Shown: one piece after another, positions 1 through 10,503 of the stretch
Position numbering within the stretch: position 1 is the stretch's first letter
Layout: every line of letters begins with the position of its first letter
NCBI GenBank assembly: GCA_022641595.1
Contig: JALCDN010000015.1
Span: 1 to 33,604, forward strand
From: Ruminococcus sp.
Lineage (GTDB): Bacteria > Bacillota > Clostridia > Oscillospirales > Ruminococcaceae
DNA: 33,604 nucleotides
Reading direction: 5' to 3'
Program-made: the position numbers and the translations under genes
The notes under the pieces: generated by a model
Told to the model about the DNA's origin: nothing
Database searches by the model: none
What the model saw: the letters and a program-made list of their open reading frames with translations, nothing else

Positions 1-193
1 GTTGTTTAAGTATCTGTTGTTTTGTAGCCTCATCTCCGTCGAATGAGATGGTTATTCTTGAAAATTCGCTTGATTCTGTTTCACCGACTGTAAGGCTGTT
101 GATGTTGAAACCTCTTCTTGTGAACATACTTGAAACTCGTGTAAGAACGCCTGATATATTGGAAACGAGGATAGCGATAACAAATCTTTCCAT
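1..193 (-). CDS. ilvN: Acetolactate synthase small subunit (partial, runs off window start)
   Basis: Reverse-strand reading from ATG at 193..191 gives MERFVIAILVSNISGVLTRVSSMFTRRGFNINSLTVGETESSEFSRITISFDGDEATKQQ, an ACT-domain IlvN/IlvH N-terminus. The ATG overlaps the ilvB stop (TAATG). Confidence 0.93.
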   Translation of the reverse strand, partial: MERFVIAILVSNISGVLTRVSSMFTRRGFNINSLTVGETESSEFSRITISFDGDEATKQQILKQ

Positions 194-1869
194 TATTTTT
201 CGTCCTCCTTGATTTCAGTAATAATGTCGTCGATAGAGCCGCCCGGCGGAAGCATAGGGAGAACAAATTCATCGCAGTCAACTGAGCAGTCGATTACAGA
301 AGGGCCATCATTTGAAAATGCCTTTTTGAAAGCGTCGGCAAATTCCTGAGTAGTCTCTGCTTTGAAGCCTTTTGCACCGAAAGCCTCAGCAAGCTTTATG
401 AAATTAGTTTTTCTGTTGAGTGTGGTATTGGAGTAGCGTTTGTCGAAAAACAATGTTTGCCATTGTCTTACCATACCGAGAACACCGTTATTCATAATAA
501 CTATTACCAAAGAGCAGTTCTGAGATACAGCAGCTGCAAGCTCGTTGAGGTTCATACCGAAGCTGCCGTCGCCTGTAACGAGAACAGTTTTGCAGCCTGT
601 AGCGACATTTGCGCCTATAGCAGCACCCATACCGAAGCCCATAGTACCGAGCCCTCCGCTTGATATAAACTTTCTTGGTTTCATAAACGGATATCTTTGA
701 GCAGTCCACATCTGGTGCTGACCTACATCTGTAACAATAACTGTATTTTCATCAGCCCCACTACTTATTATATCAATGATATTATAAGGTGTCAATGCCT
801 TTGAGGTCTTTATCATAGCATTTTCATCATTTTTGAGTTGTGATATTCTCTGCTGCCACTCTGAATTTTTCTGAGAATCAATCATAGCTGTAAGGCGGCT
901 AAGAGAATCTTTTACATCGCCTTGTATTCCGAGATAAACCGGAATGTTTTTTTCAAGCTCGGCATCGTCTATATCAATGTGGATAATCTTAGCATTTACA
1001 GCGAATTTGCTTTTATTTCCGGTAGCTCTGTCGCTGAATCTTGCACCTGCTGCAATAATCAGGTCAGCTTCGTTCTGAGCCATTGATGAAGCGTAATGAC
1101 CGTGCATACCCTGCATACCGAGAAAACGTGGATTTGAAGTCGGAACGGCAGAAATGCCCATCATACTGCAACCGATATAAGCATCGGCTTTTTCTGCAAG
1201 AGCCATTACCTCGTCCGATGCACCTCCGGAAATAACGCCGCCACCGCAGTAGATATAAGGTTTTTTAGCCTGGGCTATCATTTTGGCTGCTTCAAGAAGC
1301 TGAGAATTGTCAGCGGTAATTTTTTCAAAAGCCGGAGCAACAGTCTGAAGTTGAAAATCGCATTTATTGACCTGAACGTCCTTTGGAATATCAACAAGAA
1401 CAGGACCGGGACGACCTGATTTAGCTATTCTGAAAGCGAGTCTGAGTGTATCTGCAAGCTTGCTTACGTCCTTAACGATAAAATTATGTTTGGTTATAGG
1501 CATAGTTATGCCGATTATATCGACTTCCTGAAAGCTGTCCCTGCCGATAAGGCTACACGGAACGTTACCGGTGATAGCAACAAGCGGAACTGAGTCAAGA
1601 TGAGCCGTAGCGATACCTGTTACAAGGTTTGTAGCACCCGGGCCTGATGTGGCGATTACAACGCCAACCCTGCCTGTAGCTCTTGCATAGCCGTCAGCAG
1701 CGTGGGCAGCACCCTGTTCGTGTGCTGTCAGTACATTTGTTATACGGTCGCTGTGTTTATAGAGTTCATCGAACAGATTGATAACCTGACCGCCCGGATA
1801 TCCGAAAACGGTGTCACAGCCCTGTTCGATCAAGGTTTCAACAACTATTGCTGCACCTGATAAATTCAT
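193..1869 (-). CDS. ilvB: Acetolactate synthase large subunit (ThDP-dependent)
   Basis: ORF with MNLSGAAIVVETLIEQGCDTVFGYPGGQVINLFDEL... and GDGSFGMNLNELAAAV...NNGVLGMVRQWQ ThDP motif. The start could be ATG at 1869 or an upstream TTG (1875 or 1881). Confidence 0.96.
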   Translation of the reverse strand: MNLSGAAIVVETLIEQGCDTVFGYPGGQVINLFDELYKHSDRITNVLTAHEQGAAHAADGYARATGRVGVVIATSGPGATNLVTGIATAHLDSVPLVAITGNVPCSLIGRDSFQEVDIIGITMPITKHNFIVKDVSKLADTLRLAFRIAKSGRPGPVLVDIPKDVQVNKCDFQLQTVAPAFEKITADNSQLLEAAKMIAQAKKPYIYCGGGVISGGASDEVMALAEKADAYIGCSMMGISAVPTSNPRFLGMQGMHGHYASSMAQNEADLIIAAGARFSDRATGNKSKFAVNAKIIHIDIDDAELEKNIPVYLGIQGDVKDSLSRLTAMIDSQKNSEWQQRISQLKNDENAMIKTSKALTPYNIIDIISSGADENTVIVTDVGQHQMWTAQRYPFMKPRKFISSGGLGTMGFGMGAAIGANVATGCKTVLVTGDGSFGMNLNELAAAVSQNCSLVIVIMNNGVLGMVRQWQTLFFDKRYSNTTLNRKTNFIKLAEAFGAKGFKAETTQEFADAFKKAFSNDGPSVIDCSVDCDEFVLPMLPPGGSIDDIITEIKEDEK

Positions 1870-1972: not shown

Positions 1973-2002
1973 ACAGACCTTCGACAAATGCCGAAGGTCT
2001 GT
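1973..2002 (-). terminator. Attenuator-type terminator hairpin in the ilvB leader
   Basis: Minus strand ACAGACCTTCG-GCATTTGT-CGAAGGTCTGT followed by TTTGTTAA; ~11 bp perfect stem between the leader ORF and ilvB. Confidence 0.7.
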
Positions 2003-2067
2003 AAGTATATATGCCTTATGGTATCAAACTATGTCATACATAATTCTGATGATATCAAAGCAGTTAC

Positions 2068-2178
2068 TTATAGTTTACAACAGCATGGTAATAAAGCATA
2101 TCCGGTAATTCTGTCGCTGAGGACTCGACCGTCGATGCTGCTAATAATGACAAAACCAATATTAATGACCGATTTCAT
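2068..2178 (-). CDS. Putative 36-aa Ile/Val/Leu-rich leader peptide upstream of ilvB
   Basis: Minus strand AAAGGAGTGGTAATAATG then MKSVINIGFVIISSIDGRVLSDRITGYALLPCCCKL*; strong SD, 13/36 residues I/V/L, followed by a terminator hairpin. Too short for the supplied ORF track. Confidence 0.65.
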   Translation of the reverse strand: MKSVINIGFVIISSIDGRVLSDRITGYALLPCCCKL

Positions 2179-2210
2179 TATTACCACTCCTTTGCTGTAC
2201 TTATAATATA

Positions 2211-2239
2211 AATATAGCACCTTACCGCATTAAAATCAA
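2211..2239 (-). promoter_or_regulatory. Predicted sigma-A promoter for the ilvB leader
   Basis: TTGATT (2239-2234), 17-bp spacer, TATATT (2216-2211) just upstream of the leader ORF SD. Confidence 0.5.
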
Positions 2240-2265: not shown

Positions 2266-3981
2266 TTACATTATATTTGAGTTTTCAACATCTGATTTTG
2301 TCGATTTTTGCTTATAATTTTCCGATTTAAGCATAATATTCACAGCACTTACAAGTGCTTTTGCAGACGATGTAAAGATATCAGTATCAATTCCTGTACC
2401 CCAGTACAAAGCTTTGCTTCCGTCTGAAATGGCAACATATGAGACTGCCTTTGAAGTCGAACCTATTTCCAAAGCGTGTTCAGTGTAAGTTTCAATTGTA
2501 TATTTTCTGCCTACATAAGAAATAATTGCGTTGCTGACAGCGTCGAGACGACCGTTTCCTACGTCATTTACAACAGCATTCTTACCATTGTATTTCATTG
2601 TTACAGAAGCCTCTATGCCGTTTCTCTGCACGAAATGTATTTCGTTGACGCACACAGGCGAATCAAGATTGATATAATTCTCTTTGAAAATTTTGAAAAT
2701 TTCGTCGGGGTGAAGCTCTTTGTGCATTTTATCGGATACGTCTTTTATGTGATATCCAAAAACCTCACGCATTTTTCTTGGAAGATTAAATCCATAGCGT
2801 GTTTCCATAAGGTAACCTATACCGCCCTTACCGGACTGACTATTTATTCTGATAACATCGGTCTCGTAGGTTCTTCCGACATCTGATGGGTCTATTGGCA
2901 GATACGGAACTGTCCAGCGGCTGCATTTTTTCTCATCACGCCACTTCATTCCCTTTGCTATTGCGTCCTGATGTGAGCCGCTGAACGCTGCAAAAACAAG
3001 CTGACCACTGTACGGCTGACGCTCGTAAACGTGCATTCCCGTAACCTTTTCGTATATATCGGCAATTTCTGGAATATTTGAAAAGTCAAGCTGTGGATCT
3101 ACTCCCTGTGAATACATATTCATTCCAAGAACTATGATGTCAACATTACCTGTGCGTTCACCGTTTCCGAAAAGAGTGCCTTCAACCCTCTGAGCACCCG
3201 CAAGAAGTCCCATTTCGCTGTCCGCAACAGCACATCCTCTGTCGTTATGAGGATGAATTGATATAATTACGTTTTCACGATACTTTATGTTATCGCATAT
3301 GTATTCAACCTGATTAGCATAGATATGCGGCATAGAAAGTGAAACCGTTACAGGAAGATTAATAATAACCATGTCATTTTCAGTAGGTTTCCATATATCG
3401 AGAACAGCATTGCACACTTCAAGTGCAAATTCCGGTTCAGTACCTGTAAAGCTCTCCGGAGAATATTCAAACCTGAAATTTCCCGCTGTCTTTTCACGAT
3501 ACTGCATACAAAGCTTTGCACCTGAAACTGCGATTTCCTTTATTTCCTCACAACTTTTTCTGAAAACCTGTTCACGCTGTGCAACGGAGGTTGAATTATA
3601 GAGATGTACTATTGCATTTTTTGCACCTTTAAGAGCTTCAAATGTTTTGGCAATAATGTGTTCTCTTGACTGAGTAAGAACCTGTATTGTGACGTCATCG
3701 GGAATCATATTCTTTTCAATAAGAGTGCGGCAGAACTGATATTCGGTTTCGGAGGCAGCAGGAAAGCCTATTTCTATTTCCTTAAAGCCAACCTTGACAA
3801 GAAACCTGAAAAATTCGAGCTTTTCCTCAAGGCTCATCGGTGTAATAAGAGCCTGATTACCGTCTCTGAGGTCAACGCTGCACCATATCGGAGCCTTATC
3901 AATATACGATTTTTCAGTCCATTTCATAGCAGTTTTTGGAGCTTCAAAAAACTGTCTTGAATACTTTTCAAAATTTTTCAT
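2266..3981 (-). CDS. leuA: 2-isopropylmalate synthase (LeuA type 2)
   Basis: MKNFEKYSRQFFEAPKTAMKWTEKSYIDKAPIWCSVDLRDGNQALITPMS...; HMGL-like domain and C-terminal regulatory domain; SD AAAGGAAATTACTATG supports the start at 3981. Confidence 0.95.
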   Translation of the reverse strand: MKNFEKYSRQFFEAPKTAMKWTEKSYIDKAPIWCSVDLRDGNQALITPMSLEEKLEFFRFLVKVGFKEIEIGFPAASETEYQFCRTLIEKNMIPDDVTIQVLTQSREHIIAKTFEALKGAKNAIVHLYNSTSVAQREQVFRKSCEEIKEIAVSGAKLCMQYREKTAGNFRFEYSPESFTGTEPEFALEVCNAVLDIWKPTENDMVIINLPVTVSLSMPHIYANQVEYICDNIKYRENVIISIHPHNDRGCAVADSEMGLLAGAQRVEGTLFGNGERTGNVDIIVLGMNMYSQGVDPQLDFSNIPEIADIYEKVTGMHVYERQPYSGQLVFAAFSGSHQDAIAKGMKWRDEKKCSRWTVPYLPIDPSDVGRTYETDVIRINSQSGKGGIGYLMETRYGFNLPRKMREVFGYHIKDVSDKMHKELHPDEIFKIFKENYINLDSPVCVNEIHFVQRNGIEASVTMKYNGKNAVVNDVGNGRLDAVSNAIISYVGRKYTIETYTEHALEIGSTSKAVSYVAISDGSKALYWGTGIDTDIFTSSAKALVSAVNIMLKSENYKQKSTKSDVENSNIM

Positions 3982-4092
3982 AGTAATTTCCTTTCCCGAA
4001 CGAATTTGCAAAAATGGTATTGCAAATTTGTTCATATCGGTTGTTTGGTGTCTGTTGTTGATGCTGTGAAGCGTATTGAAAAACGGACATAA

Positions 4093-4385
4093 AAAAAGTC
4101 TCTTTTATGCTAAGCATAAAAGAGACGAAGAAGCTTATAAATATCTCCGTGGTACCACTCTTAATTGACATAAAAAAATATGTCCACTCAATCGCATCAT
4201 CATACAATGTGCCTCTCTATAACGGGAGAAACCGTTCAAGCCTAATTACACTCTGATTACGAATAGTGTTTTCAGCCGACTGCTCAGGGAGGAGCTATGA
4301 CTCACGACATTCTGCTGTCTTGCACCAAACGACAGCTCTCTGAAAAAATGAAAATGAGCTTTATTTCCCATCATTGCATTTACTA
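4093..4385 (-). promoter_or_regulatory. T-box riboswitch (probably leucyl-tRNA responsive) upstream of leuA
   Basis: Minus strand carries GATGGGAAATAAAG, AGAGAGCTG...GGTGCAAGACAGC, the T-box core AAGAGTGGTACCACGGAGATA and a terminator. A candidate CUC (Leu) specifier lies in AGCTCCTCC. Confidence 0.92.
4098..4126 (-). terminator. T-box regulated terminator
   Basis: GTCTCTTTTATGCTTAGCATAAAAGAGAC followed by TTTTTTT on the minus strand. Confidence 0.9.
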
Positions 4386-8485: not shown

Positions 8486-9779
8486 TATTTTTTCCTTTTA
8501 ATTTGCAAAGGCAATCTTTTACCTCTCTGTACATATACAATGACCCCAACGCAATAAGCGGTCTGTTGTTATCAACAGAATCCTTATATGCTGTACAAAG
8601 TCCTTCTGAAAGTTTCTCATACGCAGTAGCATTTCTTTCATTTCTTACGAACACATCTGCAAGCTCAAAGCTGTCAAGTGCTCTTGGATTGCGTGGCATT
8701 ACCGTATAAACTCTGCAAGCAACCGGACAAAGCAGCTTAACCATAGTTTCATAGTCCTTATCAGCCATAACTCCGATAAGTACATTAACACGTTTGTCTC
8801 CGAAACGCTGACGAATACTTTCAACAGCATATTTTATTCCGTCAGGATTATGTGCACCGTCATATATAACAGTAGGTTCGAGGCTTATCGTCTCAAATCT
8901 TCCCTGCCAAAGAGCATTTTTTATTCCGTTGTAAACAGCATCGTCACTGATTTCAAGGAGCATTTCTCTGAGAAGCTCGACCGATGCAAGTACAAGTGCA
9001 GCATTTCTCGGCTGGTATGCACCGAAAAGTGATAGCTTTACATTTTTGAAGCGTCCATAACTAAGTACAATTCCATCGGACGTATTTCTGACATTTTCAA
9101 GCAGATTATAATGCACCTCAATAAACGGAGAATGCATATCTGCTGCTTTTTCGGCTATTACCTTCTCAGCCTTAAAGTCAGTTCCGCCGAAAATTACAGG
9201 ACGTCTTGCCTTTATGATTCCTGCTTTATGGCAGGCAATTTCCTCCACAGAATTTCCAAGCCAGGATAAGTGGTCGGCAGCAACATTTGTAATTATGCTG
9301 AGCAGTGGATTTGTGATAACATTTGTTGCGTCATATTTTCCGCCCATACCGCATTCTATAACAGCGGCATCGCAATGTTTCCTTTTAAAATACTCAAAAG
9401 CAGCGGCAGTCATAACTTCAAATTCGGTAGGCTTATCACGCATTTGTTCGGCAAATGAGCTTACGAAGCTGATAACCTCGGCAAATTCGTCATCGGAAAT
9501 ATTCACACCGTTAATTCTGAAGCTTTCATTGATGCGATAAATATACGGTGAGGTAAACATTCCGGTCGTATATCCCGCAGCGCTTAAAACCGATGCCAAC
9601 ATAACGCTGACCGAACCTTTTCCATTTGTTCCTGCCACATGAATACATCTGACCTCTTCCTGAGGATTACCCATAAGTTTGAGGAGTTGAAGAATTCTTT
9701 CAAGCCCTGGGTGACTTCCTCTTTGAGCAGCAATATTGATATATTCAATTGCTTTATCATAATTTATCATTTTTTGCAC
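8472..9779 (-). CDS. folC: Folylpolyglutamate synthase / dihydrofolate synthase
   Basis: HVAGTNGKGSVSVMLASVLSAAGYTTGMFTSPYIYRINESFRING... Mur ligase/FolC signature. Confidence 0.95.
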   Translation of the reverse strand: MQKMINYDKAIEYINIAAQRGSHPGLERILQLLKLMGNPQEEVRCIHVAGTNGKGSVSVMLASVLSAAGYTTGMFTSPYIYRINESFRINGVNISDDEFAEVISFVSSFAEQMRDKPTEFEVMTAAAFEYFKRKHCDAAVIECGMGGKYDATNVITNPLLSIITNVAADHLSWLGNSVEEIACHKAGIIKARRPVIFGGTDFKAEKVIAEKAADMHSPFIEVHYNLLENVRNTSDGIVLSYGRFKNVKLSLFGAYQPRNAALVLASVELLREMLLEISDDAVYNGIKNALWQGRFETISLEPTVIYDGAHNPDGIKYAVESIRQRFGDKRVNVLIGVMADKDYETMVKLLCPVACRVYTVMPRNPRALDSFELADVFVRNERNATAYEKLSEGLCTAYKDSVDNNRPLIALGSLYMYREVKDCLCKLKGKNKIGI

Positions 9780-10327
9780 ATTCTTTCGAGTTGATTTGCA
9801 AAAGCCTTATTATTCATAATCATATAGATTATGTAGAATTCGCAGACGCCCAAAATAGCACAGGACGGTATTCTGAGAAGTATAAGCTTCAGAGGATAGT
9901 GAAAATAGATATAAAATGCAATGGAGTTGATGATAAGTGAGCCGACTATTCTTGCTGCAGCAATAGAAACGGCGATATTGAGGGCTTTGTTTTCCTTGAA
10001 CATCGTATGCGAAACAATTCCTGAAATAAAGCCTACGCAGCACGCTCCAAGTGTGATTACAGGGTTTATGGCATAGCCAACCATAATACAGCCGATTATA
10101 TCGGCACAAGCCCCAACGGCAGCACCAATAAACGGTCCGAGCATGATACCTGCCATAAGGACAGTAAGTGTTTCAAAACCGAATCTGAGTGGACCTGCTG
10201 TAAATGAGAGTTGTTTACCTGCAACGCTTATAGCGATAAACACCGCCGCAACTGCAAGCACTCTGATATTGCCGAAAAGCCTTAGCTCTCCGACCGCCTG
10301 AGACCTGGAATTTTTGCTTATAAACAT
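9767..10327 (-). CDS. folT: ECF transporter S component, folate family (FolT-like)
   Basis: VAAVFIAISVAGKQLSFTAGPLRFGFETLTVLMAGIMLGPFIGAAVGACADIIGCIM; overlaps folC and follows a THF riboswitch. Confidence 0.88.
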   Translation of the reverse strand: MFISKNSRSQAVGELRLFGNIRVLAVAAVFIAISVAGKQLSFTAGPLRFGFETLTVLMAGIMLGPFIGAAVGACADIIGCIMVGYAINPVITLGACCVGFISGIVSHTMFKENKALNIAVSIAAARIVGSLIINSIAFYIYFHYPLKLILLRIPSCAILGVCEFYIIYMIMNNKAFANQLERMCKK

Positions 10328-10374: not shown

Positions 10375-10399
10375 AACTTCTTATTTATTGATGCCTTAT

Positions 10400-10498
10400 G
10401 AAGCGGGATGCAAAACACGAACCGCAAGTCATAAGACTTTTCGTTTAACCGACAACTCCCCGTTCGGTCAACACTTAACGCCCGTATTTTTACTCTTC
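10400..10498 (-). promoter_or_regulatory. Tetrahydrofolate (THF) riboswitch
   Basis: Minus strand GAAGAGTA...GGGCGTTAAGTGTTGACCGAACGGGGAGTTGTCGGTTAAACGAAAAGTC...GACTTGCGGTTCGTGTTTTGCATCCCGCTTC matches the conserved THF riboswitch core, upstream of folate transporter and folate synthase genes. Confidence 0.93.
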
Positions 10499-10503
10499 AA
10501 TAG

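Follow-up and report, generated by a model that had tools for sequence, protein, structure and literature searches.

Transcription attenuators such as those of Escherichia coli ilvGMEDA, ilvBN, and trp combine control codons, mutually exclusive helices, and a terminator before the structural gene. In Firmicutes, ribosome-mediated attenuation of the ilv-leu operon was shown by mutation for Rli60 from Listeria monocytogenes (PMC5864092), and the ilvD leader from Staphylococcus aureus responds to Leu through a Leu-rich 26-aa peptide (PMC5794164). Ordinary leader peptides in Firmicutes have been noted for hisS (PMC2965389), while T-box surveys list BCAA synthesis in Clostridia as T-box-controlled (PMC2494555). 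In Corynebacterium (PMC10272879; ilvB-OMG), ilvB is preceded by an upstream ORF of 15-17 aa with BCAA codons, a terminator, and an antiterminator.

In the window, i.e., the whole analysed stretch of 33,604 nt from Ruminococcus sp. (contig JALCDN010000015.1), the region ahead of ilvB is very probably a ribosome-mediated transcription attenuator of ilvB(N) that responds to Ile/Val charging. It resembles Rli60 in its Firmicute host, BCAA-rich leader peptide, and terminator/antiterminator pair, but Rli60 encodes a 13-aa peptide, precedes ilvD, and acts together with CodY, and no sequence relation between the two was seen. As in S. aureus, a Firmicute leader peptide stands in place of a T-box on BCAA genes, although its core consists of Val and Ile codons rather than being Leu-rich. 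The layout before ilvB is also that of Corynebacterium, with a peptide of different length and sequence, and the control codons, exclusive helices, and terminator ahead of the structural gene are shared with the E. coli attenuators. No paper on leader-peptide attenuation in Ruminococcus turned up in the literature library searched. Switches of this kind are known, but the genus-wide Ruminococcus version seems to be undescribed. It adds a well-supported, genus-wide leader-peptide attenuator in Clostridia (rumen and gut organisms of the Ruminococcus type), where T-boxes are the expected BCAA control. The features of the locus are as follows.

4118..4383, minus strand: T-box leader of leuA (RF00230, 113.6 bits)
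2266..4035, minus strand: leuA, 2-isopropylmalate synthase (Pfam HMGL-like, IPMS_D2, LeuA_dimer)
2234..2239, minus strand: -35-like TTGATT; a TTGATT-N17/18-TATAAT-like site recurs in relatives
2211..2216, minus strand: -10-like TATATT, 17-nt spacer to TTGATT, by consensus match alone
2184..2193, minus strand: Shine-Dalgarno (SD) sequence of the leader, AAAGGAGTGG; AGGAG is conserved in alignment A1
2068..2178 (stop included), minus strand: leader ORF MKSVINIGFVIISSIDGRVLSDRITGYALLPCCCKL, 36 codons, ATG at 2178, TAA at 2070-2068
2143..2151, minus strand: control codons GTC ATT ATT (Val-Ile-Ile), the core conserved in leaders of the genus
2107..2124, minus strand: GTC CTC AGC GAC AGA ATT (VLSDRI), with conservation limited to the subclade of the window; possibly further control codons
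2081..2086, minus strand: antiterminator 5' strand ATGCTG, within codons P31-C33, in register with TTCTGCC of other leaders; same pairing in G129
2002..2070, minus strand: spacer, predicted from a single-sequence fold to form one hairpin that would draw both antiterminator strands together
1988..1993, minus strand: antiterminator 3' strand CGGCAT, overlapping the terminator 5' arm and loop
1973..2002, minus strand: intrinsic terminator hairpin ACAGACCTTCGGC-ATTT-GTCGAAGGTCTGT, followed by TTTTGTT
193..1869, minus strand: ilvB, acetohydroxyacid synthase large subunit (Pfam TPP_enzyme N/M/C)
start at 192, minus strand: ilvN (Pfam ACT_AHAS_ss)

All leader elements lie between the leuA stop at 2266 and the ilvB ATG at 1869. 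The promoter-like site, SD sequence, 36-codon ORF, terminator, and ilvB were found where the original prediction had put them (2239-1973, minus strand), and the peptide, with its 13 I/V/L residues, is exactly the one quoted there. Two details required correction: the ORF, described as ending in CCC, actually ends in ...PCCCKL, and the stem of the hairpin, given as 11 bp, has 11 contiguous Watson-Crick pairs and extends slightly further, to 13 bp, when one G.U is counted. When the 396-nt intergenic region was Markov-shuffled 20,000 times, an SD-led ORF equally rich in Ile and Val appeared in 16 of the copies; a chance origin of the leader is excluded because it is conserved across the genus.

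ilvB is present in 120 of the 125 genomes of the genus. Among the 110 ilvB upstream regions examined from the genus, 78 contain an ORF of 25-55 codons that starts at an SD-preceded ATG, carries a Val/Ile core, and is followed by a terminator; about 30 members lack such a leader. Conservation in relatives, on which the original prediction had been staked, was thus found. The consensus of the main type is M(K/R)x.V....SGIVII.GAVINVSDC...SFCPNGALA, whereas FVII-S..-RVLSDRI characterizes a small diverged subclade (G000, G029, G062, and G040) that includes the window. The closest relatives of the window's leader are the leaders of G029 (MKTIMLTGFVIINSVVGRVLNDRISVNALSLCRNGTD) and G129 (MKSVILTGFVIINSIIGRVLSAVTFSCSETVCCKA), the latter, located before ilvB, being the single member found outside the genus, and a related leader in G110 ends with LLCCCYA. 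Named public records with such leaders include Ruminococcus flavefaciens isolate RUG13777 and other Ruminococcus MAGs (L040, L044, and L058). Searches of 398 genomes of the family with a covariance model of the leader gave clear matches only in the genus and in G129, the many matches at 20-32 bits being treated as noise. The window's genome carries one clear copy (65 bits; the next match scores 22 bits), and a protein search with the 36-aa leader returned G029 as the sole convincing match.

In two loci (L208 from G071 and L205 from G104) an early stop shortens the leader ORF, and the pairing elements seem to be kept (clearly so in L208); these are possibly decaying or recoded attenuators. In other lineages, unrelated-looking BCAA-rich leader ORFs occur upstream of ilvB in L043, L063, L066, L068, L114, and L060 (e.g., MFIFGTLSIVLLAVISLVLVVNNGQSGCAFSLK in L043, MQNIWLAIIMILAVIIVLHDNVCLRNATFER in Oribacterium, L066, and MNTVFNNINSIIIIAAVVIIGCGTAGCCC in Lentisphaerae, L068), with strong terminators scored in all except L060, where the ORF was missed by the scan. 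This suggests a repeated origin of BCAA-rich ilvB leaders.

The coding signal is concentrated in the first part of the leader. Across the 78 leaders, position 0 of the core is Val or Ile in all 78, position 1 is Ile in 77, and position 2 is Ile in 69. These counts are approximate, as in about ten leaders the automatic anchor was placed on a Val/Ile run further upstream in the same frame. The core is in frame with an SD-preceded ATG in 73 of the 75 leaders of alignment A1. Ile and Val account for 44% of leader codons 2-20, compared with 4% of the remaining codons and 13% in window genes. Codon choice is also skewed: the core Val codon is GTC in 61/65, within leader codons 2-20, 74% of Val is encoded by GTC vs 15% in ilvB of the same genomes, and ATT reaches 64% in leaders vs 27% in ilvB. 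tRNA-Val(UAC) anticodon arms are found nearly everywhere in the genus; perfect-stem versions of tRNA-Val(GAC) are scattered and absent from several near-complete genomes, and the tRNA loci found in the incomplete assembly that contains the window include none. The leader GTC is probably read by tRNA-Val(UAC) alone. Slow-codon choice, which has been modelled for attenuators (PMC1183508), would fit the GTC bias at the core; an unseen RNA constraint on GTCATT would fit as well, and the first core GTC lies outside every supported helix.

Conservation of the core as codons, in frame with an SD-led start, also bears on the reading in which the hairpin is a metabolite- or tRNA-binding RNA (a T-box remnant, a ppGpp riboswitch, or another riboswitch) and the ORF is incidental. 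Such an element would have precedents, as ilv genes elsewhere are controlled by riboswitches and T-boxes. However, an Rfam search with the window leader and its relatives gave no ilv-leader or riboswitch match over the gathering score (the ilvB-OMG model possibly lies outside the library) and only chance-level matches at a low threshold; the same search found T-box sequence and specifier fold before leuA only, and not in the ilvB leader. No conserved aptamer-like core exists beyond the three helices described below, and this explanation is very improbable.

The 75 leaders of alignment A1 served as the basis for three helices. P1 lies just behind the core, its 5' arm formed by the xGAV codons and its 3' arm by the SDCR codons (A1 columns 94-138). 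The antiterminator (AT) joins leader CATTCTGCC with terminator GGCAGAATG, so that the codons at the leader's 3' end (TCATTCTGCC) base-pair with the terminator (T), specifically with its 5' arm and loop. P1 is 87.6% paired with 67 double-change cells (shuffled mean 29), AT 93.6% with 16 (2.7), and T 93.8% with 53 (12.4), the covariation score of each being reached in 0/500 shuffles; these shuffles keep no control for relatedness and the figures are not probabilities, whereas slid controls, which retain relatedness, score far lower (slid versions of AT are only 31-55% paired). Mutual information calculated with no structure assumed likewise gave top ranks to pairs of P1 and T and to the AT pair 108-173. 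Matched changes in AT include TCGTTCTGTC:GACAGAATG (L185), CACTCTGCC:GGCAGAGTG (L149), TGCTGCCG:CGGCAGC (L157), and TGTGCCC:GGGCGCA (L192), and, within the subclade, TCTGCCG:CGGCAGA (G029), TGCC:GGCA (G062), and TACC:GGTA (G040). The window is a diverged member: its AT has only 6 bp (AUGCUG:CGGCAU, the pair ATGCTG:CGGCAT being common to the window and G129), and the P1 columns are unpaired in its subclade.

AT and T share A1 columns 276-279 and 287-288, and both covary; because the same columns are used, the two helices are mutually exclusive. Alternative pairing of terminator and antiterminator, proposed for modelling in the original prediction, was in this way recovered, and peptide-based attenuation is borne out by the genus-wide ORF, its in-frame Val-Ile-Ile core (73/75), and the covarying, exclusive AT and T. 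Judged from sequence, the locus has the features of the attenuator class: a conserved, short, SD-led ORF ahead of the operon, control codons for the end products, an intrinsic terminator before the structural gene, and an antiterminator excluding it. From these we infer translation, termination, the amino acids sensed, and the direction of the response. The classical four-segment design (1:2, 2:3, 3:4, as in trp and ilvGMEDA) is not followed. There, hairpin 1:2 takes up strand 2, whereas here P1 covaries and leaves the AT strand (columns 144-152) free, with no overlap and no competition between the two. P1 might act as a polymerase pause or as a roadblock to the ribosome.

Two further pairings were tried and rejected. 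A start-core hairpin (AUAAUGA/UCAUUAU) proposed by RNAalifold is 93% paired but lacks excess covariation, its slid versions scoring alike, and a large alternative antiterminator predicted solely for the window, between codons 14-19 and ACAGACCTTCGGC, is not conserved in G029.

The helices also weigh on whether the ORF encodes a functional small protein, with the hairpin as a plain terminator of the small gene or of leuA. The conserved ORF with its own promoter-like site, SD sequence, and terminator would suit such a gene. Against this, the C-terminal third varies freely in frame and sequence while the terminator-pairing nucleotides are kept, a terminator overlapping a conserved antiterminator is unexpected at a plain gene end, and the leader has been lost in several genomes. 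We consider a small-protein gene highly unlikely.

As an attenuator, the region would operate as follows. Transcription would start near 2205, and the leader would be translated while being made. Under a shortage of Ile-tRNA or Val-tRNA, the ribosome would be held at GTC ATT ATT or at later Val/Leu/Ile codons, leaving the leader's 3' codons free to pair with the terminator 5' arm and loop before its 3' arm exists; AT would form and transcription would continue into ilvB. With both tRNAs charged, the ribosome would reach the leader's end and cover the antiterminator strand, so that the terminator could form and transcription would stop.

The effect of ribosome position was estimated by folding the transcript at the point where synthesis of the terminator's 3' arm is about to begin. 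RNA was masked as far as 14 nt downstream of the A-site codon's first base; this is a thermodynamic estimate that ignores kinetics. As long as the ribosome is no more than 8 codons beyond the core, the terminator 5' segment pairs with upstream RNA at a mean of 0.66-0.69, P1 being allowed to form; at 16 or more codons beyond the core, the mean is down to 0.17-0.25. Mean AT occupancy is 0.68 with the ribosome at the core and 0.20 at the stop, compared with 0.47 when the 3' part of the leader is shuffled, and it exceeds that of the leader's own shuffles in 75 of 78 cases. The window is the weakest member (0.50 at the core, 0.38 at the stop, and 0.39 shuffled); with occupancies of 0.55 at codons 17-26 and 0.01-0.15 at codons 30-35, it follows the pattern of AT loss in the model, as a weak member.

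AT remains high even when no ribosome has moved beyond codon 2, so that read-through is predicted for an untranslated leader. Rli60 mutants that have lost the start codon are, in contrast, super-attenuated (PMC5864092). That termination requires complete translation of the leader, with control codons chosen for slow decoding, is a tentative proposal, which we regard as somewhat less probable than its opposite.

The cysteine codons near the stop (TGC TGT TGT in the window and TGC TGC TGT in G110) could be taken to make the ORF a cysteine sensor in which these codons control termination, all the more as most relatives have a Cys codon at the same place. This common codon is, however, part of the AT core, being the TGC of TTCTGCC. 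In 12 of the 75 leaders (e.g., G111, G091, G038, and G041) the AT nucleotides are read in another frame, giving HSAR instead of SFCP and no Cys, as the distance from core to AT has changed by non-triplet lengths (44, 47, 50, and 53 nt beside 45, 48, 51, and 54). Since the AT nucleotides are kept while the frame changes, the C-terminal peptide, including Cys, is a by-product of RNA pairing. G062 and G040 also have no Cys near the stop. Cysteine sensing was rejected on account of the frame shifts and is extremely improbable; the Cys run of the window is best seen, from the compared sequences, as a side effect of AT pairing. C-terminal residues of leader peptides should accordingly be read with caution, being set here by RNA pairing.

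The T-box on the adjacent leuA, suggested in the original prediction, was detected with RF00230, and its specifier, read by eye from the alignment as CTC, is probably that for Leu. leuA and ilvB would use two different tRNA-charging sensors, the former a T-box (probably for Leu) and the latter the translating ribosome (Ile/Val). The expectation of two different sensors in neighbouring genes holds beyond the window, as 14 of the 17 genus-level loci checked have T-box-leuA ahead of ilvB (13 over the Rfam cut-off and one below), whether or not an ilvB leader is present. As the leuA-ilvB gap holds no other terminator call, transcripts reading through leuA would pass both controls. The leader belongs to ilvB, because it is present in G122, G040, and G129, where leuA is not the neighbour. 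Conversely, nine T-box-leuA loci have no ilvB leader (G043, G105, G068, G070, G076, G011, G118, G102, and G089); in the first five (L306-L310), ilvB lies directly behind T-box-leuA, and the leuA T-box has apparently replaced the ilvB attenuator. Such natural losses of the leader, with ilvB behind T-box-leuA or its own promoter, make the switch of control testable.

The window's genome has nine T-box matches, four of them over the cut-off, and tRNA-sensing leaders are common in it. Separately, a THF riboswitch is located at 10399-10499 (minus strand) of the window, upstream of an ECF transporter substrate-specific component (9767-10327); a THF riboswitch also adjoins leuA in L315.
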